Both the position numbers and the translations under genes were made by a program. Below are positions 1,038 through 17,703 of a stretch of DNA of 64,000 nucleotides, in pieces. The notes below the pieces were generated by a model that was given only the letters and a program-made list of their open reading frames with translations, made no database searches and was not told the origin of the DNA. Origin of the DNA: Methylopila sp. Yamaguchi (GTDB lineage Bacteria > Pseudomonadota > Alphaproteobacteria > Rhizobiales > Methylopilaceae). How positions within the stretch are numbered: position 1 is the stretch's first letter; every line of letters starts with the position of its first letter. The stretch lies in assembly GCF_002897035.1 (NCBI RefSeq), contig NZ_BAUX01000009.1:62001-126000 (forward strand), read 5' to 3'.

Positions 1038-2189
1038 CTACAGGTCTTTCCCGTAGAGCCGCCAGGTCTTCGTGTGCTTGGCGGGCAGGCTGGCGACGAG
1101 GTTGATGACCGAGCGGTTCTCCTCGAGCATCCAGCTGACCTCCATGCGCCGCACCTTGGCCGCCTGCGCTTTCTCCACGGCGTCGGCGAGCAGCGAAGCC
1201 GCGGCCATCGCCCCCACGCGCGTGCCGCGCCAGGCGCGGCGGACGCCGATGACGGGAACGCGCACGCGGTTGACGCCGGCCACCTTCAGCCGCCACAGCA
1301 TCCGGGCCCAGCCAAAGGGGAACAGTTTGCCCCCGAGCCCGTGGATCGCCTCATTCACGTCCGGAGCCATGGCGAGCACGCCGATCGGCTCGTCCTTCCA
1401 GGTGACGATCGTCGTCCAGTCCCGCGGCAGCAGCGGCTGCGCCAGTTCGGCGAGGAAGCTCGCCTCGGCGTCGGAGACCGGCACGGCGCCCCAGTTGCCG
1501 GACCAGCCGTCGTTGTAGACGGCGTTGAGGGTCGCGACCGCCTCGCGGCCGACGGCGCTGCGAATGACGAGGTCCTTGGAGCCGGCCCAGCGCGTGCGGG
1601 CGCGCTTGACGCGCGCGGGCAGCGAGCTTCCGGCCACAGGGCCCTCGTAGCCGATCAGGTCCTTGAGTCCTGAGAAACCGAGCCGCTCCAGCTGCTTGGC
1701 GTAGTAGCGCGGGGCGTAGTTGGTGTGGGTGGTCGACGGCGTGTCATGGCCCTCCACCAGCAGGCCGCACTCGTGGTTGATCGAGGCGCTGAACGGACCC
1801 GTCATCCGCGTCAGGCCGCGCTCGCGCAGAAAGGCGGCGGCGGTCGCGAACAGCGCGTCCCAGACGGCGTCGTCGTCGATCGCCTCCAGGAAGCCGAAGT
1901 GGCCCGCGCCGTCCTTGTGGATGGCGAGATGGGCGTGGTCCTTGACCGCATAGATCCGCCCCACCGGCCGGCCGTCGCGAAAGGCGGTCCAGGCGCGCCC
2001 GTCGTTGTCGCGGGCGAAGGGGGTGTTCCCCGGCGTAATGGTAAGGTTGAGCTCGTGCAGCAGCGGCGGCGTGAAGGCCGGATCGCGTCCTTGCGCGGCG
2101 AGACCCGCCCGCCAGAACGGCGTGACGTCGCGGCGCGTCTCGACCGGGCGGATCTCGATCGGGGTGCGGTGGGCCGGGGCTGGGGTCAC
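1038..2189 (-). CDS. Double GNAT-like N-acyltransferase, last gene of the PKS operon
   Basis: 383 residues from a GTG at 2189, five bases after the stop of the oxoamine synthase gene, so it is almost certainly cotranscribed. Seen: the C-terminal half carries a GNAT-type acyl-CoA loop (VRRAWRGTRVGAM, about residues 317-329) and the typical late-strand sequence VSWMLEENRSVINLV (351-365). The N-terminal half (about 65-175) has the same kind of layout, including a strand-helix pattern ending NYAPRYYAKQLERLGF, so the protein looks like two fused GNAT modules. There is no signal peptide or TM segment. Inference: as the tailoring enzyme of a pathway expected to release an amino ketone, it may N-acylate that amine. 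An unrelated acyl transfer cannot be excluded; the substrate is not readable from sequence. Confidence 0.75.
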   Translation of the reverse strand: MTPAPAHRTPIEIRPVETRRDVTPFWRAGLAAQGRDPAFTPPLLHELNLTITPGNTPFARDNDGRAWTAFRDGRPVGRIYAVKDHAHLAIHKDGAGHFGFLEAIDDDAVWDALFATAAAFLRERGLTRMTGPFSASINHECGLLVEGHDTPSTTHTNYAPRYYAKQLERLGFSGLKDLIGYEGPVAGSSLPARVKRARTRWAGSKDLVIRSAVGREAVATLNAVYNDGWSGNWGAVPVSDAEASFLAELAQPLLPRDWTTIVTWKDEPIGVLAMAPDVNEAIHGLGGKLFPFGWARMLWRLKVAGVNRVRVPVIGVRRAWRGTRVGAMAAASLLADAVEKAQAAKVRRMEVSWMLEENRSVINLVASLPAKHTKTWRLYGKDL

Positions 2190-2194
2190 GCGGT

Positions 2195-3589
2195 TCAGGC
2201 CGGTCGGGTCGCCTTGGCGAGCGCCGCCGCCATCTTGATGCCGAAACCGGCCTCCGCGAGCTTGGCGTGCTCGTCGGCGGTCACGGCGACGGCTTCGTCG
2301 ATCTGGGCGGGCTCATGCTCGCTGGTGAAGAAGAAGCGAAGCCGGGCCGAACGCTCGGGCACCGCGGGATGGATGATCGGCAGCGCGTTCACGCCGCGCT
2401 CCAGCAGCCGGTTGGCCAGATGCACCGCGCGCAGGCTGTCGCCCACCATGACCGGCGAGATCGCGAAGCCGGCGCTGGCGCCGACGTCGAGGCCCGCGGC
2501 CTTGGCCTTCTCCACGAAGCGCTGGCCGATCGCGCGCAGCTTCGCCACCCGCTCGGGCTCGCGCTCCAGCACGTCGAGCGAAGCGATCGCCGCGCCCGCG
2601 ACGGGCGGCGGCATGCCGACCGAGTAGACGAAGCCGGGCGCGGAGAACTTCAGATAGTCGCAAAGCGCGGCGGAGCCCGCGATGTAGCCGCCGCAGCCCG
2701 AGAGCGTCTTGGACAGCGTGCCCATCCAGATGTCGACCTCGTTCGGGTCGACGCCGGCCTCTTCCGCGATGCCGCGGCCGGTCTTGCCCAGCACGCCGAG
2801 CGAATGGGCTTCGTCCACCATCAGCCAGAAGCCGAACCGTTCGCGCAGCGCGACGAGACGCTTCAGGTCCGGAAAGTCGCCGTCCATGCTGTAGAGGCCC
2901 TCGACGACGACGAGCACCCGCGCGTGGCCATGGGCGTGGGCGATCAGCATTTCCTCGAGCGCGTCGAGATCGTTGTGCGGGAACAGCCGCCGCGTCGCGC
3001 CCGAGAGCGTCGCGCCGACCACGATCGAGTTGTGGGCGAGGCTGTCGTAGAGCACCAGGTCGCCCTGGCGCATCAGGTGGCCGATGGCCGAGACGTTGGT
3101 GGCGTGTCCGCTGACGAAGCACGCCGCCGCCTCGACGCCGATGAAGCGCGCGATCCGGCCTTCGAGCTCCTGATGGATCGGGCGTTCGCCCGCCACCAGC
3201 CGGCTCGCGGACACTGAGGTGCCATAGCGGTCGATTGCCGCCTTGGCGGCGGCGCTGACCTCCGGGTGTCCGTTCAGGCCGAGATAATTGTAGGAGGCGA
3301 AATTCAGGATGGTGCGGCCGTCGATGTGGGTGGTCGCGCCCGCCCGATCGTCATGCACGCGGAAGAAGGGCGTGCCGACGCCGATCAGCTCCGCCACCGC
3401 CTGCTGGGTGCGGATGTCCTTGAGCTCCGGCAGGTCCTGGAACCGGAGCTGGGCCTTCCGCGCCCGTTTCGCCCGCGGCGCCGCAGCCTCCGCGGAGCCG
3501 TCCTTCTTCGGGGCGGACTGCCTCAGCGCGCTGAGCAGTCCGTCCTTCGCCGAGCGCGACAGCGCGCCCACGCCACGCCGCTCGCTCAT
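2195..3589 (-). CDS. PLP-dependent alpha-oxoamine synthase (serine palmitoyltransferase/KBL/BioF family)
   Basis: 464 residues, with the ATG at 3589 overlapping the PKS stop in an ATGA. Seen: the class II aminotransferase fold with the alpha-oxoamine synthase motifs LDFASYNYLGL-like (NFASYNYLGL, 96-105), GTSVSASRLVAGE (123-135), the stacking His in DSLAHNSI (H186), DEAHSLGVLG (259-268) and the PLP lysine in GTLSKTLSGCGGY (K294). An extra basic 45-residue N-terminus precedes the usual fold. Known: members condense an amino acid with an acyl thioester and lose CO2, giving a 2-amino-3-ketone (BioF, KBL, SPT, HemA, fungal Fum8). Inference from the overlap: its acyl donor is the polyketide on the ACP of the adjacent PKS, making this the off-loading enzyme. 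A biotin role is unlikely because no bio genes are nearby. Confidence 0.9.
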   Translation of the reverse strand: MSERRGVGALSRSAKDGLLSALRQSAPKKDGSAEAAAPRAKRARKAQLRFQDLPELKDIRTQQAVAELIGVGTPFFRVHDDRAGATTHIDGRTILNFASYNYLGLNGHPEVSAAAKAAIDRYGTSVSASRLVAGERPIHQELEGRIARFIGVEAAACFVSGHATNVSAIGHLMRQGDLVLYDSLAHNSIVVGATLSGATRRLFPHNDLDALEEMLIAHAHGHARVLVVVEGLYSMDGDFPDLKRLVALRERFGFWLMVDEAHSLGVLGKTGRGIAEEAGVDPNEVDIWMGTLSKTLSGCGGYIAGSAALCDYLKFSAPGFVYSVGMPPPVAGAAIASLDVLEREPERVAKLRAIGQRFVEKAKAAGLDVGASAGFAISPVMVGDSLRAVHLANRLLERGVNALPIIHPAVPERSARLRFFFTSEHEPAQIDEAVAVTADEHAKLAEAGFGIKMAAALAKATRPA

Positions 3590-6500
3590 CCGCTCACCCG
3601 GCCGATCGCCGACCGGCGCTCCTCCACCGCCGCGCCGAAGGCCGCGAGGTCTTCGATCGCGACGTCATCGGAGACGTGACGGTTGACGAGATCCGCGTTG
3701 ACCGCCGCGCTGTCGGCGCCGCCGTCCGGCTCGTGGATGCGCGAGACGATCGACTGAGCGATCGTCGTGAGGGTCGTGGAGTCGCCGATCGCGACAAGCG
3801 GCAGTTCGATGTCGAAGCGTCGCTCGACGCTCATGCGCAGCTCAAGGCCCATCAACGAGTCCATTCCAAGCTCGGCCAGCGGGCGCTGGGCCGAGATTTC
3901 CTTCGCCGGCAGCTTCAGAATGCGGGCCACCTCGCCGGCGAGGATCTCCGAGACAACGTCGCGCGCCTCGCGGGCGTCCTTCCCGCGCACAAGCGCGGCG
4001 AGGTCGATCTGTTCCACCGTGTCCTGCGGTCCGAGTTCGGCGCCAGCCAGCACTTCGGCGAAGGTCGGCGCCGCGAGGAAGGCGAGGTCGCGACGCGCCG
4101 CCGCCCAGTCGATCGGGGCGATGGCGACGACCGCCGTCTCCGGCCGACGGTCGTTGCGCGCCAGCACGGTCCCGAGCCCTTCCAGCGCCTCGGCGCCGGA
4201 AAGCGTGGCGTGGCCGAGCCGCCGCTGGATCTTCTCCTTCACCTCGCCGGTGCGGGCGAGATAGCCGACGTCGCCGAGCGCGCCCCAGGCGATCGCGAGT
4301 CCGGGCCTGCCCGCCGCCCGGCGCCGGCGGACCAGCGCCTCGAGCCAGGCGTTGGCCGCGACGTAGTTGGCCTGGCCAGGATTGCCGATGACCGTGGTGG
4401 CGGAGGAGTAGACCACGAACTGGCCGAGCGGATCGCTCGCCGTCAGCCGGTCGAGCGCCGCCGCGCCGTCGATCTTGGGCCGCAGCACGGCCTCGAAGCG
4501 CGCGGCGTCGAGGTTCGCAAGCAGCGAATCCTCCAGCACCATGGCGACGTGCCAAGCGCCGCCGATGGGGCCGAGCGACGCGCGGGTCTCGTCGAGCGCC
4601 TTCGCCAGCGCCGTCTCGTCGGCCGCGTCGCAGGCGAACACCTTCACCTCCGCGCCGGCCGCCTCCAGACGGGCGACGCCGGCCTTGGCGTGCTCGCCCT
4701 TCGCGCCGGACCGGCCGATCAGCGCGAGCTTGGTCGCGCCCTTGGCCACCAGCCACTCCGCGGTCGCGAGACCGAAGCCGCCGAGGCCGCCGACGAGCAC
4801 ATGCGCGCCCTCGGCCGCCTGGAACGACGCAGTCTCGGGAACGCTCAGAGCCTCGGGCGCCTGCGGGCGCACCACGATCTTTCCGATGTGCCCAGACTGC
4901 TGCATCAGCCGGAACGCGTCGCGCACCTCCGCGGCCCCGAAGGCGCGGTAGGGCAGTGGTGAGAACACGCCCTTCGCGAACAGCTTCAGCACGTCGCGGA
5001 ACAGCTTTTGGCCGAGATCCTTGCGGTGGACCAGCAGCTGGTCGGCGTCGATGCCGAAGTAGGCGATGTTGCGCCGGAACGGACGCAGGCCGACGCGGCT
5101 GTTGGCGTAGTAGTCGCGCTTGCCAAGCTCGAGGAAGCGGCCGAAAGGCTTCAGCGTCTGGAGGCTGCGCTCCATCGCTTCGCCGAACAGCGAGTTCAGC
5201 ACGACGTCGACGCCTTCGCCGCCCGTCAGGCGCTTGGCCTCGTCCACGAAGTCGAGGTTGCGGCTGGACAGCACGTGGCGGGCGCCGAGCGCGCGCAGCA
5301 GGTCGCGCTTCTCGTCGGAGCCGGCGGTCGCGATGACCTTGGCCCCGCGCCAGAGCGCGATCTGCAGCGCGGCCAGGCCGACGCCGCCGGCGCCGCCATG
5401 GATCAGCACCCACTCGCCCCGCTTGATGCGGGCGAGTTCGACCAGCGCATAGTAGGCGGTGAGGAAGCAGACCGGGATGGTCGCGCCCTCTTCGAAGGCG
5501 AGGCCTTCCGGCAGCGGCGCGACTGCGATCTCCGGCACGGTGACCTGGCTCGCGAAGGCGCCGGAGGCGAAGGTGACGACACGGTCGCCCGGCGCGAAGG
5601 CGGTGACGCCGGCGCCGACCGAGGTGACCACGCCCGAGCACTCGATGCCGAGGCCAGGACCGGCGAAGCCGTCCTCGAGCGCCTCTTCGGGGAGCAGGCC
5701 GAGCGCCCACATCACGTCGCGGAAGTTCAGGCCGACCGCGGCGACGTCGATCGCGACCTCGCCGGCCTGGGGCGCCACGATGGGCGCGGGGCGCCACGCG
5801 ACGTCGTCCAGGCCGCCTTCGCGGCCGGTGTCGAGCTGCGCGCGGACGGCCGTCGCGCTCCCAGTCCCGACGGGAGCGGGAGGCAGGCCGTGGCGCAGCC
5901 GGGGAGCGCGCACCCCGCCAGCCGAGATCTCGATCTCGACGTCGGCGCGGGGCGTGGCGATCTCGGCGGCGACGGCGCGCGCCGCGGCTTCGTCGGCGAG
6001 CGCCGGATCGACGTCGATCAGCCGGATGTCCTGGCCCCGGAACTCGTTGCGCACGACGCGCAGGAAGCCGGCGAGGGCCGCCTGGTCGGTGCGGCCGCCG
6101 CTGTCGAGCGTCCAACCGAGCGCGCCTGGCGCGACGATCCACAGCCGCGCTTCCGCAGCGGCCGCGGCGCGGACGAGGCTGAGCACGCGGCCGGAGCGGG
6201 CCGTCGCGGTCGCGGAGTCGTCCGGGCCCGCGGCGTCGAACACGGCGACGAGGTCGGGCTTCGGCGCCGATTTGGCCGCCTTGCCCAGGCCGAGATCGAG
6301 GGCTTGGCCCCAGTCGCCGGCAATCTCGTCCACGATCCGCGCGACCTTGCGGCCCGCGCCCGCGATCGCCTCCGACAGGCCCGCGGCCAGGGCGCTCTCG
6401 CCGGTTTCGGCGAACAGCGAGACCGGGCCGCCGGCGGCGGTCTCCTCCGTCTCCGCCGCGCGGGTGGCGCGGGTGGCGACGGCGAGCGTGGTCGGCGCGC

Positions 6501-9500
6501 GGGCGCCAGCGACGGGCGCGAAGGCGTGGTCCGTCAGCCGGGCGTCCGCGAAGTCGGCGGCCCAGTCCTCGGGCGCGCGGGCCGCGCCGACCGGGAAGGC
6601 GTCGGCGGCCGACCGGTCGAACCATGACGGGTCGAGGCCGAGCGTGACGTCGAGGAAGGGGGCGGGTTCGACGGCCGCCAGCAGCAGACGCCCGCCGTCA
6701 GCGAGCGCCGCCGCGAGGCGGCGGACCGCCTCGTGGTCGTGCAGCGCGGCTCCCCAGCCGACGGCGCCGACGATCAGGTCGAACCGACCTGGGGCGTCCC
6801 CGTCGGAGCCTGGATCGAAGGCGGCGACCGTAACCCCGGGCGCGCCCGCGAAAGCGAAGCGCAGGCGCTCCGCGGCGGTGGCGTCGGGGTCGGTCACAGC
6901 GAGGGTCACGCGCGGGTCGCCGCCAAGCGGCAGCAGGCGGCGGGTGAGCGCGCCCGCGCCGGCGCCGAGCTCGAGGATCCTGAGCGGCCGGTCGGCCGGC
7001 CAGCCAGCCAGCGTGTCGGCCGCGAGCGCCGCGACGGCCTCGACGCCCGCCGCGACGAGCGGCGCGCCGCCGGCGAGATGCGCGAGGGTGGAGGCGCCGA
7101 AGGGCGCGCCGGCGCCCGGGCCCTGCTTCAGCGTCTTCGGCAGCAGGGACAGCGCGCGTGTGGCGAGCGTCACCTCGGCGCTGCGGTCGGGATGGTCGGC
7201 CAGCACAGTGCGGGCGATGTCGACCGCCGACGGAAGGCCGGTGGCGGCGGCGAGCGTCCAGGTCTCGCCGTCGAGCGAGGCATGGCCGCGCTCCTCGAGG
7301 ATGGCGAGAAGACGGTTGGCGAGGCGGACCGACCCCGCGGCCAGACGCTTTCGGGCGATCAGCGCGGCGACCGAGCCGCTGCGGCTACGGCCGAAGATCG
7401 CGACCAAGGCCTCATGGGCGAGCGCGACAGCGAAAGCTTCCAGCAGCAGGTCGTCGTCCGCCCGGTCGTCGGCGTCGCCGGCGACGCCGAGCGCCTTGGC
7501 GCGGGCGACGAGGGCCGCGGCCTCAAGCGCCGGCGGCGTCTCGCCGCCGAGCGGCGCGCCGATCAGCGCCGGGGCCGGATGGTACGACAGCCGCTCGAGC
7601 GGCGTGCGCCGCGCCAGCGTGACGGCCCGGAAGCGCGCGTCGGTCAGCGTCGCGACGATCTCGCCATCGACGCCGAACACGGTGAAGGTCGCGTCGATCG
7701 ACCGTGGGCTGAAGCGGCGGATGCGGATCTCCGCGCCGCCGATCGCGGCGCCGGGCTTCATCAGCCGCAGCGCCCCGAAGCGCATCGGCAGGTAGGTCAC
7801 GTCCGGCCGGTCGCCGTGCTCGCCGAACAGCGTCAGCAGTCCGTGGAAGCAGGCGTCGAAGTCGGCCGGATGCAGGCCGTAGCGGTCGTCGCGCGCGCCG
7901 GCCCGATCAGCCTCCGGCTTCAGCGTGACGCGGATCGCATGCGGCGCGGGCCGGTCGACCCGCTCGACAGCGCGGAAGGCCGGGCCAAAGCCCAGGCCGT
8001 GTATCTCGGAGCGGGCGTAGATCGCGGCGGAGGTGAAGCTCGGGCCGTCGCCGGAGACGGGCTCCGGAGCCGGGACCACCTTGGTCGGCGTCGGCGCCAC
8101 GCGCCCGCTGGCGTGCAGGATCCAGTCGTCGGAGCGCAGGCGCGGGCGGCTGAGAATCTCGACCGTGCGACTCTCCGGCGAGATGCGGGTGCGCACCTCC
8201 GTCAGCGACTCGGAATCGAGCGTCAGCGCGTGCGGAATCTCGAAGTCCGAGAGCTCGACGGTCGGCGTCTTCAGCCAGGCGCGGCCGGCGGCGAGCGCCA
8301 TCTCGGCCAGCGCAGCGGCCGGCACCACCACGCGACCGCCGACCTTGTGGTCGGCGAGAAGCGGCGCGACCAGCGGGTCGAGGTGCGTGGTCCACTGGTC
8401 GCTGTCGACCTTGAGCCGCGCGCCGATTAGGGGGTGCTGGTCGTAGCCGTGGTAGATGCCTTGGCCTTCGCCGGTGACGGACACCGCGAAGCGCGCGTTC
8501 TGCCAGGGGTAGGTCGGCAGCTTCGCGGCGGGGCCGCTGAGCCGTCCGAAGGCGAGGTCGCGATCGACGCGGCCGCCCTTGGCGATCACGCGCGAGAGCG
8601 TGCGGCGCACCGGGTCGTGCTCGCCGGGGCCGTGGTCGTCGCAGGACAGCGCGCCGCCCTGGACCTCCTCCGCGGTGAGCACGTCGGAGATGTAGGTCTG
8701 CAGCACCGGCCGGGGCCCGATCTCGACGAAGATCCGGGCGCCGAGCGCCGCGGCCGCGGCGACGGCGTCGGAGAACAGAACCGGCTGGCGGACGTTGTCC
8801 CACCAGTAGTCGGCGCCAAGGGCCGATCCTTCGACCAGCGCGCCCGTCACGCTCGACACGAAGGCGCGCCGCGTCGCGCGCGGCTTCAAGCCCTTGAGGT
8901 CGGCCAGCAGCGGCGCGCGCACGCCCTCGATCAGGCCGGTGTGGAAGGGGTAGTCGATGTCCAGAACGCGCACCGCGATGCGCTTGGACTTGGCGAAACG
9001 CTGCAGTTCGCGGATTTCGGCCTCGGGGCCAGAGACGGTGATCGAGCGGGCGCTGTTGACCGCAGCGATCTCGACGCCCTCGAAGCCTCCGTAGTCCAGC
9101 AGCGCCTGCACCTCGTCCGCCGGCGACAGCACGGCCGCCATCGCGCCGGCCTTCCAGGCGATCTCCTGGTGGAGGCTGCGCGAATGCACGACCTCCGCCG
9201 CCTGCTCCAGCGTCAGCGCGCCGGAGGCGTAGGCCGCGGCGACCTCGCCGACCGAATGACCGAGCACGACGTCGGGCGTCACGCCGACGGCGCCCAGCGC
9301 TGCAGTGGTGGCGACCTGGACCGCGAACAGCAGCGGCTGGGCGAACTCGGCGCGGCGGAGCTTGTCCGCGAGATCCTCGGCGAACAGCGCCTCGCGCAGC
9401 GACCAGCCGGCGACCTTTCCGAACGCCGCGTCGACCTCGTCGAGGCTGGTGCGGAAGGCGCGATCCTGGGCGTGGAGCTTCCGCCCCATGCCGGCCCACT

Positions 9501-11133
9501 GCGAGCCGTTGCCCGAGAAGGCGAAGGCGACAGGCGCCTCGCGGCCGACCGCCTGGTCCGCCGCTGCGCCTGCGACCTCGCCGGTCGCGGCGAAGGCGGC
9601 GAGCGTCGCGGCCCAGCTCTGGGCGTCGTCGCTTTCGAGCACGAGACGGCGGGGCAGCAGGTCGCGCGTCGCGGCCACGCTGGTCGCGATCCGGCGGGCT
9701 TCCGCCGCGTCCGCGCCGTCGAGCGATTTGGCGTAGGCGCCGGCGAGCGCCGACAGCGCCTCGCGCGAGCGCGCCGAGAGCGCCAGCACCGGAGCGGTCG
9801 CCGAGGTTTGAGCTGGCCGCGGCCCGGCGTGGCCAAGGCGGTCCTCGGGTGTCGGGTCGTAGACCACCACGTGCGCGTTGGTGCCGCCGAAGCCGAAGGA
9901 GTTCACGCCGGAGTAGCGCGCCTGGGCGCCGCGCGGCAGCGGCGTAAGCTCGGTCGCAACCCGGAGGTTGAGCTCGTCGAACGGAATGTCGGGATTCGGC
10001 TCCTCGAGGTGGAGCGAGGCCGGAAGCAGGTCGTTCTCAAGCGCGAGATCGACCTTCAGCAGCCCGACGAGGCCCGAGGCCGGCTCGAGATGGCCGACGT
10101 TGGTCTTGACCGAGCCGATCGGCAGCGGCCCGACGGTGCGGCCCTTGAAGGCGCGGCCGACGGCGCTCGCCTCGGCCGGGTCCCCGACGCGGGTGCCGGT
10201 GCCGTGCGCCTCGATAAAGGCGAGACGGTCGGGGTGGACCCCGGCGTCGGAGTACAGCCGCTCAAGCAGCGCGACCTGGGCGTCGGACGACGGCAGCGAC
10301 ATGCCGACGGTGCGGCCGTCGGAGTTCACGCCGGAGGCCGCGATCATCAGGCGCATCGGGCGATGGGCGGCGCGGGCGACGTCGGCGCGCTCGATCACCA
10401 GAGCCACGCCGCCTTCGGCCCGCACGTAGCCGTCTGCGCCGGCGTCGAAGGCGCGGCAGCGGCCGCGCGGCGACAGCATGGTCGCCTGGGCGAAGGAGAT
10501 AAACGGGAACGGGCTGCCGAGAATGCTGACGCCGAGCACCACCGCCCGCTCGATCCGTCCGGAGCGCAGGGCCACGACCGCTTCGTTCAGCGCGACCAGC
10601 GACGACGAGCAGGCCGTGTCGATGGTGAAGCTCGGCCCGTGCAGGTCATAGACGTAGGAGATGCGGTTCGAGACGATCGACAGCGTGTTGCCGGTCGCGA
10701 AATAGGGGTCGGCCGAGGCGGTGTCGAAGATGACCCGGTTGCCGTAGTCGAGCGCGGAGGCGCCGACGAACACGCCAGTCTCGCTGCCGGCGATGCTCGA
10801 GGGCGGAATCCCGGCGTCCTCGAGCGCCTCCCAGACCAGCTGCAGGCCGAGGCGCTGCTGCGGGTCCATCTGCTCGGCCTCGCGCGGCGAGATGCCGAAG
10901 GCGGCCGGATCGAAGCCGAACACGTCGTCCAGAACGCCCGCCGCGAAGGTGTAGCTCTTGCCCGGCTCGCCCTTGCGGGGATGCAGATAACGCGCGTGGC
11001 TCCAGCGATCCTCACCGATTTCCGTGACGGCGCAACGGCCCTCGGCCAGCATATTCCAGAACGAGGGGACGTCGTTGGCGCCCGGAAGACGACACGACCG
11101 TCCGACGACGGCGAGCGACAAGGGAGCTTTCAT
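3586..11133 (-). CDS. Iterative type I highly reducing polyketide synthase, KS-AT-DH-MT-ER-KR-ACP
   Basis: 2515 residues from the ATG at 11133; a TTG six codons upstream in the same frame is less likely. Domains, numbered from this ATG: KS about 5-430 with DTACSSSL (Cys175), EAHGTGT (His310) and KTNVGH (His348); AT about 535-830 with GHSVGE (Ser627); DH about 895-1175 with His929 and the Asp of HPADFD (Asp1093); methyltransferase about 1210-1555 with ILELGAGAGAL; ER about 1770-2090 with the HGGAGGVGLAALQ nucleotide site; KR about 2108-2285 with GGLGGFG and catalytic Ser/Tyr in YSSATTVIGNPGQANYVAAN; ACP about 2395-2465 with GMDSLMG (Ser2426). Every catalytic residue I checked is present, so a saturated, possibly alpha-methylated acyl chain is expected. 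There is no thioesterase or reductase domain. The stop overlaps the start of the oxoamine synthase gene (ATGA), pointing to release by that enzyme. No phosphopantetheinyl transferase lies nearby. Confidence 0.95.
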   Translation of the reverse strand: MKAPLSLAVVGRSCRLPGANDVPSFWNMLAEGRCAVTEIGEDRWSHARYLHPRKGEPGKSYTFAAGVLDDVFGFDPAAFGISPREAEQMDPQQRLGLQLVWEALEDAGIPPSSIAGSETGVFVGASALDYGNRVIFDTASADPYFATGNTLSIVSNRISYVYDLHGPSFTIDTACSSSLVALNEAVVALRSGRIERAVVLGVSILGSPFPFISFAQATMLSPRGRCRAFDAGADGYVRAEGGVALVIERADVARAAHRPMRLMIAASGVNSDGRTVGMSLPSSDAQVALLERLYSDAGVHPDRLAFIEAHGTGTRVGDPAEASAVGRAFKGRTVGPLPIGSVKTNVGHLEPASGLVGLLKVDLALENDLLPASLHLEEPNPDIPFDELNLRVATELTPLPRGAQARYSGVNSFGFGGTNAHVVVYDPTPEDRLGHAGPRPAQTSATAPVLALSARSREALSALAGAYAKSLDGADAAEARRIATSVAATRDLLPRRLVLESDDAQSWAATLAAFAATGEVAGAAADQAVGREAPVAFAFSGNGSQWAGMGRKLHAQDRAFRTSLDEVDAAFGKVAGWSLREALFAEDLADKLRRAEFAQPLLFAVQVATTAALGAVGVTPDVVLGHSVGEVAAAYASGALTLEQAAEVVHSRSLHQEIAWKAGAMAAVLSPADEVQALLDYGGFEGVEIAAVNSARSITVSGPEAEIRELQRFAKSKRIAVRVLDIDYPFHTGLIEGVRAPLLADLKGLKPRATRRAFVSSVTGALVEGSALGADYWWDNVRQPVLFSDAVAAAAALGARIFVEIGPRPVLQTYISDVLTAEEVQGGALSCDDHGPGEHDPVRRTLSRVIAKGGRVDRDLAFGRLSGPAAKLPTYPWQNARFAVSVTGEGQGIYHGYDQHPLIGARLKVDSDQWTTHLDPLVAPLLADHKVGGRVVVPAAALAEMALAAGRAWLKTPTVELSDFEIPHALTLDSESLTEVRTRISPESRTVEILSRPRLRSDDWILHASGRVAPTPTKVVPAPEPVSGDGPSFTSAAIYARSEIHGLGFGPAFRAVERVDRPAPHAIRVTLKPEADRAGARDDRYGLHPADFDACFHGLLTLFGEHGDRPDVTYLPMRFGALRLMKPGAAIGGAEIRIRRFSPRSIDATFTVFGVDGEIVATLTDARFRAVTLARRTPLERLSYHPAPALIGAPLGGETPPALEAAALVARAKALGVAGDADDRADDDLLLEAFAVALAHEALVAIFGRSRSGSVAALIARKRLAAGSVRLANRLLAILEERGHASLDGETWTLAAATGLPSAVDIARTVLADHPDRSAEVTLATRALSLLPKTLKQGPGAGAPFGASTLAHLAGGAPLVAAGVEAVAALAADTLAGWPADRPLRILELGAGAGALTRRLLPLGGDPRVTLAVTDPDATAAERLRFAFAGAPGVTVAAFDPGSDGDAPGRFDLIVGAVGWGAALHDHEAVRRLAAALADGGRLLLAAVEPAPFLDVTLGLDPSWFDRSAADAFPVGAARAPEDWAADFADARLTDHAFAPVAGARAPTTLAVATRATRAAETEETAAGGPVSLFAETGESALAAGLSEAIAGAGRKVARIVDEIAGDWGQALDLGLGKAAKSAPKPDLVAVFDAAGPDDSATATARSGRVLSLVRAAAAAEARLWIVAPGALGWTLDSGGRTDQAALAGFLRVVRNEFRGQDIRLIDVDPALADEAAARAVAAEIATPRADVEIEISAGGVRAPRLRHGLPPAPVGTGSATAVRAQLDTGREGGLDDVAWRPAPIVAPQAGEVAIDVAAVGLNFRDVMWALGLLPEEALEDGFAGPGLGIECSGVVTSVGAGVTAFAPGDRVVTFASGAFASQVTVPEIAVAPLPEGLAFEEGATIPVCFLTAYYALVELARIKRGEWVLIHGGAGGVGLAALQIALWRGAKVIATAGSDEKRDLLRALGARHVLSSRNLDFVDEAKRLTGGEGVDVVLNSLFGEAMERSLQTLKPFGRFLELGKRDYYANSRVGLRPFRRNIAYFGIDADQLLVHRKDLGQKLFRDVLKLFAKGVFSPLPYRAFGAAEVRDAFRLMQQSGHIGKIVVRPQAPEALSVPETASFQAAEGAHVLVGGLGGFGLATAEWLVAKGATKLALIGRSGAKGEHAKAGVARLEAAGAEVKVFACDAADETALAKALDETRASLGPIGGAWHVAMVLEDSLLANLDAARFEAVLRPKIDGAAALDRLTASDPLGQFVVYSSATTVIGNPGQANYVAANAWLEALVRRRRAAGRPGLAIAWGALGDVGYLARTGEVKEKIQRRLGHATLSGAEALEGLGTVLARNDRRPETAVVAIAPIDWAAARRDLAFLAAPTFAEVLAGAELGPQDTVEQIDLAALVRGKDAREARDVVSEILAGEVARILKLPAKEISAQRPLAELGMDSLMGLELRMSVERRFDIELPLVAIGDSTTLTTIAQSIVSRIHEPDGGADSAAVNADLVNRHVSDDVAIEDLAAFGAAVEERRSAIGRVSG

Positions 11134-11618
11134 GACAGGGCCTGCGCGCAAGCGTCACGAAAACGCCGTCCGGCAGCGCTCGGCCGTGACGAAACCGTCA
11201 CAAGGCCGCGCCGGGGGCGCGTCGTGGAGGGGGACGAAGGCACTAAGGCGGCGCGGGCGATGTGGAACAAATCAGGTCCGATATGAGCTGTGAACGTGGC
11301 TGTACGGGTCATGACGCGGTGCAACATAACCCGTCGGGGGACGATCGCCCAACCCTTGTTCCAGCGCCGCGTGACCGTCTTGGCCGCATGGGTGGTCCTG
11401 AATGCGTGTTGCGCAGGCGTTCCCCGCCCCATGCGTCCTCTCGCGGTGTCCGCGCCGTCGTTCACGGTGTCGTGCCGAAGCGGACCCTACACGACTTTCG
11501 ACGCGTTCGCCTATGGCCTCGTCGCGGATCGCGGATGCATGGAGGTCAGGCGCCAATGCGCCATTCAGTTGATCCGGGCTCCGCCGCTTGAGGGATGCGG
11601 AGGCGGGCCCCGGGGGCG
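11134..11618. other. Promoter-side gap upstream of the PKS operon
   Basis: About 485 bases between the PKS start and the stop of the small Ala-rich gene, both on the minus strand. The only structured element I can point to is the 16-bp inverted repeat at 11186-11201. Open frames on the plus strand across this gap run antisense into the neighbouring gene and have no protein-like composition, so I do not call them. Confidence 0.4.
11186..11201. promoter_or_regulatory. Inverted repeat upstream of the PKS operon, possible operator
   Basis: Seen: GTGACG-AAAC-CGTCAC, a perfect 6-bp dyad with a 4-bp spacer, about 53 bases upstream of the PKS ATG (minus strand). A related half, CGTCACGAAAACG, lies at 11153-11165. 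The position fits an operator or activator site. No regulator gene is adjacent, so the binding protein is unknown. Confidence 0.35.
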
Positions 11619-11972
11619 TCAGTCGCTCTTCCGCGTGAGCCGGCGGGCGTTGGCGCGCACCATGCGGGACGCCGGCCGCATCGCCGCCTCGCTGGCCGCC
11701 ACAAACAGGCCGGCCGCTGCGATCGGATCCCGCGCCCCGGCCATGGCCGTCATGACCTTCGTCGCCGCCAGACCGCCCTCGAACGCGGCGGACATCTTTT
11801 CGGCGACCATGCGCTGCGCCTCGGCGAGGCCTGCGGCGGAGGGCGATCCCGCCTCCTGCACCATCTGCGTCACGCGGTGCGCCATCACGACGCCCGCGAA
11901 GGGGCCCATGGCGGCGAAACCGCCGGCGAGCGCCGCCTGCTTGCGCCACAACTCGAAAAGCTTGGGGGTCAT
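11619..11972 (-). CDS. Small Ala-rich hypothetical protein, phasin-like composition
   Basis: 117 residues from the ATG at 11972 (MTPKLFELWRKQA). The frame is open further upstream, but that part has no coding character. Seen: an Ala/Met/Gly-rich helical protein with EAQRMVAEKMSAAFEGGL near the middle and a strongly basic tail (RMVRANARRLTRKSD). No signal peptide or clear TM segment. It resembles small Hyphomicrobiales proteins with the same start and basic end that have no established function; the composition also recalls phasins, which coat PHB granules, and the organism has a PHB depolymerase gene (41757-43451). The phasin reading is only a compositional impression. Confidence 0.6.
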   Translation of the reverse strand: MTPKLFELWRKQAALAGGFAAMGPFAGVVMAHRVTQMVQEAGSPSAAGLAEAQRMVAEKMSAAFEGGLAATKVMTAMAGARDPIAAAGLFVAASEAAMRPASRMVRANARRLTRKSD

Positions 11973-12198
11973 CAACTGCACCGGGTCACGCGAGCGCCGG
12001 CAGCAGGCCAAGGGTGGCCAGCGCGTCGCCGCGGCTGAGAACATTAGTATGTGGGGCGAACAGGTCCATGCGTCTTTCGGTTCCATGTCGTAGCGGGGGG
12101 CGGGCCCCGCGCCCTGAGCGGACCACCGCCGATTGACCCTCCGGCGGGCGCGGGCGATACGCAGACCCCCTGAGACAACCGGCGCGGAGGCGCGAGTC

Positions 12199-13116
12199 GT
12201 GAGCGCTTCCGGAGCGACGGGTCTTCGGCCGTTCGACCGGCCCTATCTGCTGCTGTCGCTGGCGTCGCTGTTCTGGGCCGGCAACATCGTCCTCGGGCGT
12301 TTCATCGCGGACCATATCCCGCCGGTGGCGCTGACCTGGACGCGCTGGGTGGGGGCCTTCATCCTGCTCGCGCTCGTCGCGCGCCGCGATCTCCTGCGCG
12401 ACCTGCCGGCGCTGCGCAGCCGCTGGCCGCAGTTGGTCGGGCTCTCGGCGCTGGGCGTCGCCGGCTATACGGTGCTCGCCTATTGGGCTCTGCATTACAC
12501 CCAAGCCCTGAACGCGCTTCTCGCCCAATCCGTCACGCCGTTGGTCATCGGGGTCTGGAGCTTCGCGCTGTACCGCGACGCGCTGACACCGCGGCAGGCC
12601 GTGGGCGTCGTTGTCTCGCTTGCAGGCGTTGCGACGATCGTGACGCGCGGCGACCTTGGGGCGCTGGCGCGGATCGACGTCAACCTCGGCGACCTGATCT
12701 TCATGGTCGCGATCGCGCTCTACGCTCTCTATTCGACGCTCCTGCGCGACAAGCCGAAGGTCGCCCAGACCTCGCTCCTCACGGCACTGATGGCTCTCGC
12801 AGCCATCCTCCTCACCCCGGCGCTCCTCTGGGAGATCGCGCAGGGCCGGACGATGTCCTTCGACGCGGTCTCCTTAGGCTCGCTCGCCTACGTCATCGTC
12901 TTCCCCTCGACGCTCGGCTACCTCTTCTACAACCGCGGCGTGGAGCTGATCGGCGCGAACCGAGCCGGTCCGTTCTTCCATCTCATCCCGCTGTTCGGGG
13001 CCGCTCTCGCCATCCTGCTGCTGGGGGAGCGCCCGCAGGCCTATCACGCGGTCGGCTTCGCGCTGGTGCTCGCCGGCGTGTGGACGGCGGCCCGAAGCGG
13101 GCCGGCGCGCAGCTGA
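12199..13116 (+). CDS. EamA/DMT-family transporter (10 TM)
   Basis: 305 residues. I chose the GTG at 12199 because GGAGG lies eight bases upstream (12186-12190); the longer frame from 12133 adds a charged, non-membrane N-terminus. Seen: about ten hydrophobic segments in two homologous halves, beginning YLLLSLASLFWAGNIVLGRF and ending FFHLIPLFGAALAILLLGERP, both hallmark stretches of EamA repeats. Known: this drug/metabolite transporter superfamily exports amino acids, metabolites or drugs through the inner membrane. The substrate cannot be read. It is transcribed away from the PKS side and forms no operon with its neighbours. Confidence 0.9.
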   Translation: MSASGATGLRPFDRPYLLLSLASLFWAGNIVLGRFIADHIPPVALTWTRWVGAFILLALVARRDLLRDLPALRSRWPQLVGLSALGVAGYTVLAYWALHYTQALNALLAQSVTPLVIGVWSFALYRDALTPRQAVGVVVSLAGVATIVTRGDLGALARIDVNLGDLIFMVAIALYALYSTLLRDKPKVAQTSLLTALMALAAILLTPALLWEIAQGRTMSFDAVSLGSLAYVIVFPSTLGYLFYNRGVELIGANRAGPFFHLIPLFGAALAILLLGERPQAYHAVGFALVLAGVWTAARSGPARS

Positions 13117-13981: not shown

Positions 13982-15655
13982 TCAGGCGATGCCGTCGATC
14001 ACGCCGTTCTCGAGCAGGCGCATGTTCACCGAGGCCGGGACCTTCGGCAGGCCCGGCATGGTCATGAGCTCGCCGCAGATCACCACGATGAAGCCGGCCC
14101 CGGCGGAGAGCCGCACCTCGCGGATCGGCAGCGTGTGGCCGGTCGGGGCGCCGATCGCAGTCGGATCGGACGAGAACGAGCTCTGGGTCTTCGCCATGCA
14201 GACCGGGAAGGAGCCGTAGCCGGCGGCCTCCCACTCTTTGAGCTGCTTCTTGATGGCCGCGCTCGCGGTCACCCGGTCGGCCCGGTAGAGCTTTTTGGCG
14301 ATGGTCTCGACCTTCTCGAGCAACGGCAGCTCGTCGCCGTAGAGGAACTCGAAGTTCGCCTTTTCGCGCTCGACCAGGTCGACCAGCGTGCGCGCGAGCT
14401 CTTCCGCGCCGGCGCCGCCCTCGGCCCAGTGCTTGCAGACGACCGCGTCGACGCCGAAGTCCGACTTTACGCGGCGCTTCAGCGTCTCGACCTCGGCCTC
14501 GGTGTCGGAGACGAAGTGGTTGATCGCCACCACGACCGGGAGGCCGAAGCCCTTCATGTTCTCGATGTGGCGTCCGAGGTTGGCGAGGCCGGCCTCGAGC
14601 GCCGGGACGTTCTCGGAGGTGAGCTCCGCCTTCGCCACGCCGCCGTGCATCTTGAGCGCGCGGATGGTGGCGACGATCACCACCGCGTCCGGCGAGATGC
14701 CGGACTTGCGGCACTTGATGTCGAGGAACTTCTCGGCGCCCAGGTCCGCGCCAAAGCCGGCCTCCGTCACCGTCCAGTCGGCGAGCGCGAGGCCCGTGGT
14801 GGTGGCGATGACCGAGTTGCAGCCGTGGGCGATGTTGGCGAAGGGGCCGCCGTGGATGAAGGCGGGCGTGCCCTCGATCGACTGCACCAGGTTCGGCCTG
14901 AGCGCGTCGCGGAGCAGCACGGACAGCGCCCCCTCGGCCGCCACGTCCTTGGCGGTGATCGGCTTCTTGTCCGGGGTGTAGGCGACCACGATGCGGCCGA
15001 TCCGCTCCTCAAGATCCTTCAAGTCGTTCGCCAGGCAGAAGATCGCCATGATCTCGGAGGCGACCGTGATGTCGAAGCCGGCCTCCCGGGTGTAGCCGTT
15101 GGTCGGCGCGCCGACGCCCGAGATGATGCTCCGCAGCGTGCGGTCGTTCATGTCGATCACGCGGCGGAAGACGATGCGGCGCGGGTCGATGTTGAGGGGG
15201 TTGCCCCAGTAGAGCGAATTGTCGACCAGCGCGGCGAGCAGGTTGTTCGCCGAGGTGATCGCATGGAAGTCGCCGGTGAAGTGCAGGTTGATCTGCTCCA
15301 TCGGCAGAACCTGCGCCCAGCCGCCGCCGGCCGCGCCGCCCTTCACGCCGAACACCGGGCCGAGCGAAGGCTCGCGCAGGCAGACCACGGCCTTCTGGCC
15401 GATGCGGTTCAGCGCGTCGCCGAGGCCGACGGTGGTCGTGGTCTTGCCTTCGCCCGCGGGCGTCGGATTGATCGCGGTGACCAGCACCAGCTTGGCGCCG
15501 GGCTTCTTCGGCAGGCCGGCGATGAAGCGGTCGTCGATCTTGGCGATCGTCTTGCCGTGCAGATGCAGGGCGTCTTCCGGAATGCCGACTTTGGCCGCGA
15601 TCTCGACGATCGGCTTGAGTTCGACGGAACGGGCGATCTCGATGTCGGTCGGCAT
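13982..15655 (-). CDS. fhs: Formate-tetrahydrofolate ligase
   Basis: 557 residues from the ATG at 15655 ([16 protein letters not shown]), with GGAG five bases upstream; this length matches the family. Seen: the ATP-binding loop [16 protein letters not shown] (about residues 63-78), the FTHFS signature stretch [18 protein letters not shown], and [21 protein letters not shown]. Known: it uses ATP to join formate to THF, giving 10-formyl-THF, in the cytoplasm. In methylotrophic alphaproteobacteria this feeds C1 units into the serine cycle and purine synthesis (compare purH at 1-306). It stands alone here, without folD or fch. Confidence 0.97.
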
Positions 15656-15803
15656 AGCGGCTCCGGCTGACGTGGCGCGAAGGAGACCGGCCGCCAAAGC
15701 CGAGCCCCTTGAGGATGGGGCGCTTTTGTCACCTTTCGGGGCTTGGTTCGCAACCGTGTCCGAGAACCGCAGACGAAGGTCTTATGCGAGCCTGCGGGAC
15801 GCT

Positions 15804-15978: not shown

Positions 15979-16443
15979 TCACTCGGCTTTCACGCCGGCG
16001 GACATGCCGGAGCGCTGACCGATCTGCTTCGCCGTCGCCGAGAAGCTTTCGTCGCTGTCGCCGATCGCGAGCACAGGCTCGCAGCGCGGGGTGCAAGCGA
16101 GGCTTTCGCGCTTGCCGCCGCGCTGGACGACGATCGTGGCGTCCTGCGCGCGGCCGACATGCACGAGCGTCTCGCTCAGCAAGGTTCCCGCACCGTCAAG
16201 GAGCATGATGTTGGTCGTCCCGAAGCTCTTGCCGGTGATGACCAGCACGCCGTTCCGCTGGCTGGTGGCGTCGGCGATCAGCGGGTTGCCGACAATGACC
16301 GTCGCGGTGCCTTCCGGCGACCGGATCACGCTCGCGCGGTCGACCGTCACCTCGATGGCGTCGTTCGCGGCGCCCGCCGGCGCGGCGAGAAGCATGAGAC
16401 CGCAGATAGCGGCGATGCGGCGGGCGGCCATCCGGGCGCTCAT
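15979..16443 (-). CDS. Secreted protein with CpaC-type pilus-assembly N-terminal domain
   Basis: 154 residues with a signal peptide (RRIAAICGLMLLAAPAGA, cleavage near residue 25). Seen: residues about 28-100 (IEVTVDRASVIRSPEGTATV, GNPLIADATS, GKSFGTTNIMLLDGAGT) have the same pattern as residues 60-130 of CpaC encoded at 18638-20182 (the domain known as pilus formation protein N-terminal region). There is no secretin domain, so it is a stand-alone periplasmic version. Two Cys (CTPRC) follow. It is divergent from the flp pilin gene and probably serves the same Tad pilus machine, perhaps as a secretin partner. An alternative start is the Met at residue 5. Confidence 0.8.
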   Translation of the reverse strand: MSARMAARRIAAICGLMLLAAPAGAANDAIEVTVDRASVIRSPEGTATVIVGNPLIADATSQRNGVLVITGKSFGTTNIMLLDGAGTLLSETLVHVGRAQDATIVVQRGGKRESLACTPRCEPVLAIGDSDESFSATAKQIGQRSGMSAGVKAE

Positions 16444-16644
16444 GACGTCGTTTCCCCAACCTTAGGTCGTGTCAGGAAAGCGGAATTGGGTGAACGAAGT
16501 CCTAACCTTGTTCTGAACGTCGCCGTTTTTCTCCGGGCGCCCTGCGCCTGAACCCTCAAACTTTATCATCGTCACCTGACGTTGCTGCCGGTGAGCCGCG
16601 CGTAACCCGCAAGCGACCGCCCACGCAGAGGTTATCTTTTGACT

Positions 16645-16659
16645 TTCATCTTACGTTAA
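16645..16659. promoter_or_regulatory. CtrA-like binding site upstream of flp pilin
   Basis: Seen: TTCA-TCTTACG-TTAA, seven of eight matches to the CtrA consensus TTAA-N7-TTAA. Known: in Caulobacter, pilA and the cpa genes are under CtrA control. It lies about 190 bases upstream of the flp ATG and about 200 from the divergent gene, so either could be the target. Confidence 0.35.
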
Positions 16660-16727
16660 TCAAGCTTTTTTACGCAACGATGCTTTAACCGTGAGTGCTT
16701 TCAATTTAACTCACCTCGAAGTTGCTT

Positions 16728-16748
16728 TTGCGATTAACTCAATCGCAA
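16728..16748. promoter_or_regulatory. 21-bp inverted repeat upstream of flp pilin
   Basis: Seen: TTGCGATT-AACTC-AATCGCAA, a perfect 8-bp dyad with a 5-bp spacer, 100 bases upstream of the flp start. No T-run follows, so it is more like a protein-binding operator than a terminator. The regulator is unknown. Confidence 0.45.
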
Positions 16749-16847
16749 CCCGAGCGTGGTCTTATGAGGCTGTTCCAGCGGGCCAGCGACGACACGAGGA
16801 CGCGGGACAGGAGCAGTCGTAACCTCTGTAGACCAGGAGTCTTCGTG

Positions 16848-17015
16848 ATGAATTTCTTCAAGCGTTTCGCTAAGGACGAGTCCGGCGCCACCGCGATTGA
16901 GTACGGCCTGATCGCTGTCGGCATCGCTATCGCCATCATCACCGCCGTCGGCCTGGTCGGCGACGAGCTGGGCGCCACGTTCAACGACGTCAAGAGCAAC
17001 CTCGAGGCCCGGTAA
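16848..17015 (+). CDS. flp: Flp/Fap-type major pilin
   Basis: 55 residues from the ATG at 16848, with AGGAG eight bases upstream (16835-16839). Seen: a short leader (MNFFKRFAKDESG) with the prepilin cleavage site G|ATAIEYGLIAVGIAIAI, including the invariant Glu at mature position 5 and Tyr at position 6, followed by one hydrophobic helix. Known: Flp pilins are cleaved by a dedicated prepilin peptidase (here CpaA, 17200-17703) and polymerised into adhesive Tad pili. It has its own AT-rich promoter region and a strong terminator right after it, so it is probably expressed separately and highly. Confidence 0.97.
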   Translation: MNFFKRFAKDESGATAIEYGLIAVGIAIAIITAVGLVGDELGATFNDVKSNLEAR

Positions 17016-17082
17016 TACCGGTCGAACGGGTCACGCCTCTCCTCGCGTTCGCCGGCCATGCGCCGGCGGACGTAGGGGCGAC

Positions 17083-17119
17083 AAAGCCGCCGTTCCTGAT
17101 CCAAGGGCGGCGGTTTTTT
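17083..17119 (+). terminator. Rho-independent terminator after flp
   Basis: Seen: an AAAGCCGCCG arm and a CGGCGGTTTTTT arm flanking a short loop, with a six-T run at 17114-17119. It lies 68 bases past the flp stop and separates flp from cpaA. Confidence 0.85.
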
Positions 17120-17199
17120 CTTGGGGGTCTTCGCGCGGCGTTAAGCCCGCTCGGGCATGGTCTCGCGTGGGGAATGGCTAAGACAGAACGGAGCGCGTC

Positions 17200-17703
17200 A
17201 TGCTTGAGACGATGGTGGTGGTGGTGCTGCCGGCGTTGGTCGCCGTGGCCGCCGTGTCCGATCTCCTCACGCTGACGATCCCCAACCGTCTCGTCTTCGC
17301 TCTTGTGGCCGCGTTCGTCGCGGCGGCGCCGCTCAGCCATCTCGATCTCAGTCAGATCGCCCTGCACGCGGCGGCGGGCGTCCTTGTCCTGGCGATCGGC
17401 ATTCTTCTGTTCATTCCCGGCTGGATCGGGGGCGGCGACGCCAAGCTCGCGGCTGCGGTCGCGCTCTGGTTCGGCTTCGAGCCGTTGCTGTCCTGGTTCG
17501 TGTCGTTCGCGCTCTTTGGAGGCGCGCTCACATTTGCGGTGCTGCGGTACCGGAGCGCCCCGCTTCCCGACCGGTGGGCTCGGATCGGCTTCCTCAAGAA
17601 GCTGCACTCGCCGCGCGAGGGCGTGCCCTACGGCCTGGCGCTCGCCGCCGGGACGCTCATGCTGCTGCCGAGCACCGCATGGTTCGCATCGATAGGGCGA
17701 TAG
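17200..17703 (+). CDS. cpaA: Prepilin peptidase CpaA/TadV
   Basis: 167 residues, with CGGAG about seven bases before the ATG. Seen: an integral membrane protein with about four to five TM segments and the two catalytic aspartates of A24 (type IV prepilin) peptidases, in SDLLTLTIPNRL (about residue 20) and in the GGGDAKL motif (about residue 76). It lacks the N-terminal methylase domain of PilD, as is usual for TadV/CpaA. Role: cleaves the leader of Flp prepilin at the inner membrane. Confidence 0.95.
   Translation: MLETMVVVVLPALVAVAAVSDLLTLTIPNRLVFALVAAFVAAAPLSHLDLSQIALHAAAGVLVLAIGILLFIPGWIGGGDAKLAAAVALWFGFEPLLSWFVSFALFGGALTFAVLRYRSAPLPDRWARIGFLKKLHSPREGVPYGLALAAGTLMLLPSTAWFASIGR

Follow-up and report, generated by a model that had tools for sequence, protein, structure and literature searches.

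A polyketide synthase, oxoamine synthase and N-acyltransferase operon in Methylopila as a candidate ceramide pathway with a proposed role in capsule anchoring

The operon and its conserved core

A stretch of 64,000 nucleotides from the draft genome of Methylopila sp. Yamaguchi (G000:C9:62001-126000; hereafter the window, G000 being the window genome) carries a three-gene operon on its reverse strand, which we analyzed as a candidate sphingolipid pathway. The first gene (3586..11133, -) encodes an iterative highly reducing type I polyketide synthase (PKS) resembling SgaA, RkpA and WcbR, as judged from its domains, its catalytic residues and the location of its homologues upstream of oxoamine synthase genes. 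Its stop codon overlaps by 4 bases the start of the second gene (2195..3589, -), assigned by its Pfam match and shared motifs to the pyridoxal phosphate (PLP)-dependent alpha-oxoamine synthases (AOSs) of the SgaB/RkpG type. After a gap of 5 bases follows, with a GTG start, a gene for a GNAT-like N-acyltransferase (1038..2189, -; product P0003), placed in the YghO/Aca family of bacterial ceramide synthases, within a branch associated with PKS loci, by its similarity to YghO, its co-occurrence with serine palmitoyltransferase (SPT), a tree and a structure model. This spacing had been described in a first-pass annotation of the sequence and was borne out. The operon ends at 1038, and the PKS, of about 2,500 residues, spans 3586-11151 if translation starts at the first TTG and 3586-11133 if it starts at the first ATG.

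A Pfam scan of the PKS found a single module of ketosynthase (KS), acyltransferase (AT), dehydratase (DH), methyltransferase-like (MT; Methyltransf_12, E 1.1e-7), enoylreductase (ER), ketoreductase (KR) and acyl carrier protein (ACP) segments, with no domain C-terminal of the ACP and no release domain. All ten catalytic residues checked (KS Cys/His/His, AT Ser/His, DH His/Asp, KR Ser/Tyr and ACP Ser) are present in the window protein; in an alignment of 62 PKSs (among them that of the window, L041 as a near-copy of it, and the pair L050 and L164, seemingly from the same organism), nine of these positions are invariant, and the KS Cys is conserved in 61, the remaining row having a gap there. 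This is the form (single-module KS-AT-DH-ER-KR-ACP, intact residues, no release domain) of the SgaAB and RkpA-RkpG systems. The domain reading of the first-pass annotation thus stood, except for its MT. The S-adenosylmethionine (SAM) motif I of this segment (E/D-x-G-x-G-x-G) is strict in 9 of the 62 PKSs, the window among these, and is found in 16 under relaxed rules, and in the window protein Gly-Trp-Gly stands in place of the His of the ‘NVLHAT’ motif. Active C-methyltransferases carry a His within this usual motif, and the MT of the window PKS is probably degenerate and inactive. The AT has the GHSVGE and PFH motifs, a combination that marks malonyl-specific domains, and it looks malonyl-specific. 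An unbranched and saturated chain is probably the best guess for the product, matching the C24, C26 and C28 sphinganines of Pseudomonas fluorescens MYb115; the report of these very long-chain bases mentions no branching in the sections consulted (PMC12134224). Taken together, the MT, the AT and the MYb115 lipids speak against the methyl branching that had been suggested at first.

The AOS matches Aminotran_1_2 in Pfam as well as the BioF, Kbl and SPT models, and passes no equivalog cut-off; against the model of canonical bacterial SPT (NF047599) it scores 271 bits, below the curated cut-off of 500. It is 57% identical to its homologue in Ensifer and 53-55% identical to those in Pseudomonas, hence at least 50% identical to these, and it lies directly downstream of the PKS. 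Its PLP Lys, Asp and His motifs are common to the homologues of Pseudomonas, Halomonas, Bordetella, Achromobacter, Methylobacterium and Ensifer, and its PAVPE loop is shared with all of these genera except Ensifer, which has PAVQE; the Acetobacteraceae examples have PVVPE. Canonical SPTs and BioF differ from the window AOS at this loop and around the Lys. In MYb115, PfSgaB makes 3-ketosphinganine from L-serine, for which it shows a virtually exclusive preference over Ala and Gly (PMC12134224). The window AOS is accordingly predicted, from its likeness to Pseudomonas homologues, to use L-serine for condensation with the acyl chain of the PKS. The off-loading of a PKS chain as a sphingoid-like amine, as first proposed, gains support from this match to PfSgaAB, and the serine preference of PfSgaB and the common active-site motifs speak against the 1-deoxysphingoid that had been offered as an option. 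Neither a 1-deoxy nor a methyl-branched product is favoured. Another AOS gene of the window genome, on contig C7, encodes a 5-aminolevulinate synthase (591.8 bits vs a cut-off of 338.55).

The neighbourhood survey was based on the best 80 of 135 confirmed AOS candidates, which were found by means of short peptide patterns in a collection of 84,980 species genomes and form no census. Genes were counted as hidden Markov model (HMM) matches on six-frame open reading frames (ORFs), and the counts are lower bounds, since 32 of the 80 loci are shorter than 20 kb. A PKS lies upstream of the AOS in 76 of these loci (excepting L057, L058 at a contig edge, L095 and L107), and a GNAT gene is found in 10. 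Similarly, in genomes of the same order outside Methylopila, whose AOSs are 55-62% identical to that of the window, a PKS adjoins in 5/5 and a GNAT in 0/5, in loci of about 4.3 kb. The conserved unit is the PKS-AOS pair, not the trio; such clusters are widespread, 6,101 having been counted (PMC12134224). Within the genus, PKS, AOS and GNAT occur together in 13/13 Methylopila genomes, the closest named relative by AOS being Methylopila capsulata DSM 6130 (99% identity), and the arrangement is therefore not due to chance. The conservation of the trio, which the first-pass annotation had set as a check, is thus confirmed within Methylopila and gives way to that of the pair in the wider set. Three of the loci without an adjoining PKS (L057, L095 and L107; Methylococcaceae, Roseimaritima and Gemmatimonadota) hold an AOS of the SgaB type, with KpsS and a short-chain dehydrogenase/reductase (SDR) nearby in L057; an AOS without a PKS neighbour may use another acyl donor. 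A further AOS, 43% identical to that of the window, was seen in L130 (G057:C12:14001-32000) at 9250-10386 (-), with no PKS or Kps match in the 18 kb.

The third gene and the ceramide synthase family

In Pfam, P0003 has a weak match to Acetyltransf_6 only (25.9 bits, cut-off 22), whereas it is similar over its full length to a YghO/Aca/bCerS member, YghO of Escherichia coli BL21 (34% identity over 377 aa, E 4e-74). The yghO gene adjoins the spt operon in that strain, and yghO and Caulobacter CC_1154 have been named as presumptively encoding the acyl-CoA N-acyltransferase that acts in dihydroceramide synthesis (PMC9386255). An AlphaFold2 model of P0003 reached a predicted local distance difference test (pLDDT) value of 79.4 and a predicted template modelling (pTM) score of 0.81, and searches of the PDB with the GNAT, as a single sequence and as a profile, gave no match. 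The description ‘double GNAT’ comes from the first-pass annotation, the weak Pfam match and the order of secondary-structure elements.

In a class-wide sample of 289 alphaproteobacterial genomes, relatives of P0003 were found in 42 and canonical SPT (E 1e-110 or better) in 39, with both in 38. The only genome with SPT and no GNAT (G130) is 82% complete; a GNAT without SPT was found in the window genome, in G095, and as two weak matches in G243 and G311. As the third gene belongs to a family with a member in 38 of the 39 SPT genomes, the operon product should be a ceramide. In addition, in a tree of 24 GNAT sequences, rooted only at the midpoint, a branch with support 100/99 separates the eight copies from PKS loci from 13 that are linked to SPT or come from SPT genomes; three rows fall in no group. 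P0003 thus belongs, by its sequence, to a separate PKS-locus branch of the YghO/Aca family, outside the SPT-linked members. Two GNAT copies, one by the PKS-AOS pair and one near the canonical SPT, are present in 12 of the 13 Methylopila genomes and in G218, and each of these genomes also has two sphingoid-type AOSs. The co-occurrence with SPT, the tree branch and the two-copy genomes favour reading P0003 as part of a ceramide synthase branch dedicated to the sphingoid base that the PKS makes. The N-acylation of the sphingoid amine by the third gene, which the first-pass annotation had put forward, is by its family and neighbourhood probable, and it seems that two ceramides can be made in a single Methylopila genome, by separate routes that each have an N-acyltransferase copy of their own.

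The idea that Methylopila has no canonical SPT was dropped, since in 12 of the 13 genomes an SPT that scores above the cut-off lies about 6 kb from the GNAT paralogue. In the window genome this paralogue, 45% identical to E. coli YghO, lies at C27:6148-7266 (+) (L163, G000:C27:1-16000); no canonical SPT was found in that genome, and the position expected for it is the contig end beside the paralogue. The absence is probably an assembly gap, and the window genome is not to be read as having a GNAT without SPT. Two other loci hold GNAT genes in different company. In L176 (G095:C88:1-14000), an SDR and a GNAT at 2494-6200 stand beside an AOS with a Bacteroidetes-like SPT score (402 of 640 bits), in a genome with no canonical SPT match; these genes may represent a third type of sphingolipid gene set. 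In L175 (G023:C31:1-18000), positions 6732-12749 hold a GNAT, an AOS and then a PKS-profile match (386 bits) with a weak SDR match, and no capsule genes.

Capsule genes and the phosphoglycerol step

Around the 80 AOS genes, KpsS was matched in 32 loci, KpsC in 15, Poly_export in 10 and any of these three in 43, together with an SDR in 28 and a sulfatase-fold transferase in 22. As a control we used 14 GNAT-centred loci (SPT-type or other GNATs), taken from 16 by leaving out L163 and the PKS-AOS locus L164; Kps, transferase and Poly_export matches were found in 0/14 of these, some of which are small (L178, 8 kb; L176, 14 kb). The co-localization of the PKS-AOS pair with capsule genes recurs in alpha-, beta- and gammaproteobacteria. 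In Ensifer sp. BR816 (L046) the order is PKS, AOS, SDR, transferase and a KpsS-like Capsule_synth gene, which is the order of rkpA, G, H, I and J. Nine Halomonas, Vreelandella and Salinicola loci and L089 have SDR, transferase, PKS and AOS on one strand, and KpsS, SDR and transferase lie near the pair in Bordetella, Achromobacter and three of seven Pseudomonas loci (L066, L077 and L078, in the order KpsC-transferase-SDR-KpsS). In L066, two small genes separate the AOS from KpsC. With the GNAT included, Aquibaculum (L050) has PKS-AOS-GNAT with a convergent SDR and KpsS in one locus, and five loci of Acetobacteraceae and Rhodospirillales (L072, L083, L099, L105 and L116) have PKS-AOS-GNAT-KpsS. 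In 19 of the 22 loci that have a transferase, its gene shares a strand with the SDR and lies no more than 114 bases from it.

The corresponding genes of the window genome form a second locus on contig C23, with KpsS and then an SDR on one strand and KpsC and then the transferase on the other; the first-pass annotation missed the capsule context because the capsule genes of Methylopila are on another contig. The SDR (C23:38516-39283), directly after KpsS, is the best match in the genome to the L128 SDR encoded after the AOS (49% identity, E 2.9e-69); of the 44 SDR matches the next best has E 1.3e-28, and the C23 gene leads by 40 orders of magnitude in E-value. KpsC overlaps the phosphoglycerol-transferase-like gene by 4 bases, and the two Kps proteins score 290.7 and 142.7 bits against Capsule_synth. 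The KpsC-like protein (L122:13416-15002, -) has 528 aa vs 652 aa in its L128 homologue, and one of its Kdo (3-deoxy-D-manno-oct-2-ulosonic acid)-transferase domains may be reduced or diverged. A second AOS, which C23 encodes close to the capsule genes, was considered as a partner and rejected: it has generic aminotransferase matches only, the next genes look bioD/bioA-like by eye, and it is probably a BioF whose closeness to KpsS is incidental. Genes of the KpsS/KpsC family (PF05159) are present in 13/13 Methylopila genomes, the transferase occurs once in each of the 13, no more than 5 kb from KpsS, and the SDR stands beside KpsS and the transferase in the three genomes looked at (L122-L124).

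The association also appears at the level of whole genomes. In the class-wide sample, KpsS/KpsC were found in 7 of 11 genomes with this AOS vs 12 of 278 others (p 4.6e-7, kinship ignored), with the Kps matches within 8 kb in six of those seven; among 61 relatives, they were found in 17 of 18 with the AOS vs 9 of 43 without.

A profile of 19 of the transferases matched GacH best (E 2.6e-30), then LtaP (1.6e-19) and LtaS (1.2e-12), and E233, T273, D440 and H441 are invariant in 19/19. We take T273 to be the nucleophile and the other three to be metal ligands. KpsS is known to add Kdo to phosphatidylglycerol (PG), and the conserved capsule glycolipid is described as (lyso)phosphatidylglycerol bearing poly-Kdo (PMC11666461). 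With phosphoglycerol attached, sphinganine becomes an analogue of lyso-PG with one chain, and its N-acylated form an analogue of PG. The GacH-like enzyme would be the one that adds phosphoglycerol, and KpsS may use the phosphoglyceryl sphingoid. In MYb115, PKS and AOS yield sphinganine and most likely phosphoglycerol sphingolipids, the latter 154 Da heavier than the free sphinganines (PMC12134224); as the difference is only 154 Da, these lipids are not N-acylated, and no GNAT was found within reach in the Pseudomonas PKS-AOS loci.

In the window itself, the next gene downstream of the operon is purH-like by eye, and upstream, divergently, lie a gene without assignment and an EamA transporter, followed by a formate-tetrahydrofolate ligase (13982-15697, -; 868 bits), which suits a methylotroph, and a Tad/Cpa-type Flp pilus cluster (15979-22225; prepilin peptidase, RcpC/CpaB, secretin, CpaD and an AAA ATPase). 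None of these neighbours is an obvious pathway partner.

A proposed capsule anchor, its alternatives and known systems

We propose that the PKS would use malonyl-CoA to build, on its own ACP, an acyl chain that is long, saturated and probably unbranched, that the AOS would release it by decarboxylative condensation with L-serine as 3-ketosphinganine, and that the GNAT-like enzyme would N-acylate the sphingoid before or after reduction of the ketone by the SDR of the second locus (G000:C23). The GacH/LtaS-like transferase of that locus would add phosphoglycerol, KpsS and KpsC would then add the Kdo linker, and the phosphoglyceryl-ceramide, a mimic of PG, would serve as the lipid anchor of the exported capsule. 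The single model is suggested because the GacH-like transferase, the action of KpsS on PG, the phosphoglycerol lipids of MYb115 and the lipid carrier of rkp-1 converge on it. That the operon makes a PKS-derived ceramide which is turned into such an anchor we hold with about even confidence; the family assignments and co-occurrences in Methylopila are observed, and the pathway chemistry there is predicted. More tentatively, and with somewhat less confidence, we suggest that a large class of Kps capsules in alpha-, beta- and gammaproteobacteria is built on a PKS-made phosphoglyceryl sphingoid rather than (lyso)phosphatidylglycerol, with the GacH-like transferase (in the rkpI position) adding phosphoglycerol, a ceramide branch in Methylopila, Aquibaculum and several Acetobacteraceae, and the ‘PG-sphingolipids’ of MYb115 as a capsule primer.

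Several observations weigh against the capsule-anchor model. The GNAT is absent from most PKS-AOS loci, and the capsule genes are outside the Methylopila operon, on another contig in the window genome and at a distance of about 0.6 Mb in G007. In 11 of the 48 loci of at least 20 kb, two of these being Methylopila, there was no match to an SDR, a transferase, Kps or Poly_export. Among the Pseudomonas loci, L096 has part of the capsule set at its edge, L088 (21 kb) has none, and L060 and L074 end soon after the AOS. Four of the 11 AOS genomes of the class sample (G248, G305, G336 and G339) have no PF05159 match at E 1e-20, the relatives counted by genus give 5/6 vs 8/40 with p only 0.005, and the co-occurrence p-values take no account of shared ancestry. 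The transferase gave only two weak matches (E 1.9e-6 and 9e-4) in 48 non-Methylopila genomes and was not found in the PKS-AOS carriers G027, G029, G031, G057 and G060. Moreover, the main text of the PfSgaAB report has no words starting with ‘capsul’, ‘rkp’, ‘kdo’ or ‘polysaccharide’ and describes the lipids as free (PMC12134224).

These points bear most directly on the alternative, unlikely in our view but to be taken seriously, that the product is a free membrane or secreted sphingolipid (a sphinganine or ceramide, perhaps with a phosphoglycerol head) without a capsule role, the capsule neighbourhood being incidental or historical. Such a lipid would agree with the accumulation of free C24, C26 and C28 sphinganines and probable PG-sphingolipids in MYb115 (PMC12134224), with the separation of the Methylopila operon from the capsule genes and with the four genomes lacking KpsS/KpsC matches; against it stand a probable keto-reductase by KpsS and a phosphoglycerol transferase by KpsC in the window genome, the recurrence of the co-localization in three proteobacterial classes, and the reported part of rkp-1 in K-antigen export and a lipid carrier (PMC4881576). 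It is improbable that the GNAT-like enzyme modifies a capsule sugar or another envelope lipid instead of acylating the sphingoid: GNAT folds are versatile, the gene is in only 10 of the 80 loci, and it directly precedes KpsS in the five loci of Acetobacteraceae and Rhodospirillales, but the family keeps company with SPT, counts the presumptive dihydroceramide acyltransferases YghO and CC_1154 among its members (PMC9386255), and has two copies in the genomes with two sphingoid-type AOSs (12 of the 13 of Methylopila, and G218). Use of alanine or glycine by the AOS, giving a 1-deoxysphingoid or amino-ketone, perhaps methyl-branched, as in the fungal sphinganine-analogue toxins, is very improbable despite the FUM1/FUM8-like architecture and the intact-looking SAM motif I, as the MT lacks its usual catalytic His, the AT reads as malonyl-specific and a 1-deoxy base would lack the hydroxyl at C1 to which a head group could be attached.

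If the capsule-anchor model is true, the rkp-1 ‘lipid carrier’ gains a definite chemical identity, and sphingolipids become part of capsule biology, which helps to explain the wide spread of PKS-AOS clusters. Already known are PKS-AOS sphingolipids, the presence of the same PKS type in capsule clusters and Aca/YghO as presumptive ceramide acyltransferase. Within the openly licensed literature searched, where no work joining PKS-made sphinganine to capsule was found, the new elements are that connection, the proposal that a phosphoglycerol transferase supplies the missing step, and a ceramide synthase branch tied to the PKS locus in Methylopila, Aquibaculum and some Acetobacteraceae.

Among known systems, the fungal FUM1 and FUM8 share the logic of off-loading a PKS chain by an AOS, and their products are amino-polyols with methyl branches, made from alanine. 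The canonical pathway of SPT, bCerS (Aca, YghO, CC_1154) and CerR has an N-acyltransferase of the same Aca/YghO family as the third gene; unlike that route, Methylopila would take its acyl chain from a PKS rather than from a specialized ACP and acyl-ACP synthetase, its AOS falls below the SPT equivalog cut-offs, and its likely reductase is the SDR near KpsS. Closest in chemistry is PfSgaAB, characterized in 2025, and the pathway can no longer be called undescribed, as it was at first. PfSgaA and PfSgaB (with PfSgaC) are likewise a monomodular iterative PKS and an AOS, with an SDR of the 3-ketodihydrosphingosine (KDS)-reductase kind in the cluster and homologous clusters in many genera, although their lipids, unlike the proposed Methylopila product, are not N-acylated and no capsule role is proposed for them in the text seen (PMC12134224); the likeness to Pseudomonas is drawn from other loci of that genus (53-55% AOS identity). 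Group 2 capsules are initiated by KpsS and KpsC, and genes of this family are present in Methylopila, where the proposed acceptor is a phosphoglyceryl sphingoid instead of PG. Finally, the statement that no alphaproteobacterial pathway of this shape had been characterized overlooked rkp-1 of Sinorhizobium, whose rkpA and rkpG have long been described, their lipid aside. The same PKS type occurs in capsule clusters as rkpA and Burkholderia wcbR (PMC3908369), rkpGHIJ lie in the rkp-1 region (PMC3557214), and the rkp-1 product has been regarded, with reference to work of the 1990s, either as a lipophilic molecule or as a specific lipid carrier (PMC3557214, PMC4881576), the region being credited with both the synthesis and the modification of the carrier for K antigen. 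The Ensifer locus is presumably rkp-1 itself, judging by its order of rkpA, rkpG, rkpH, rkpI and rkpJ, and the Methylopila pair has the gene order of rkpA and rkpG; unlike rkp-1, Methylopila has the module split over two loci, with a GNAT gene added.
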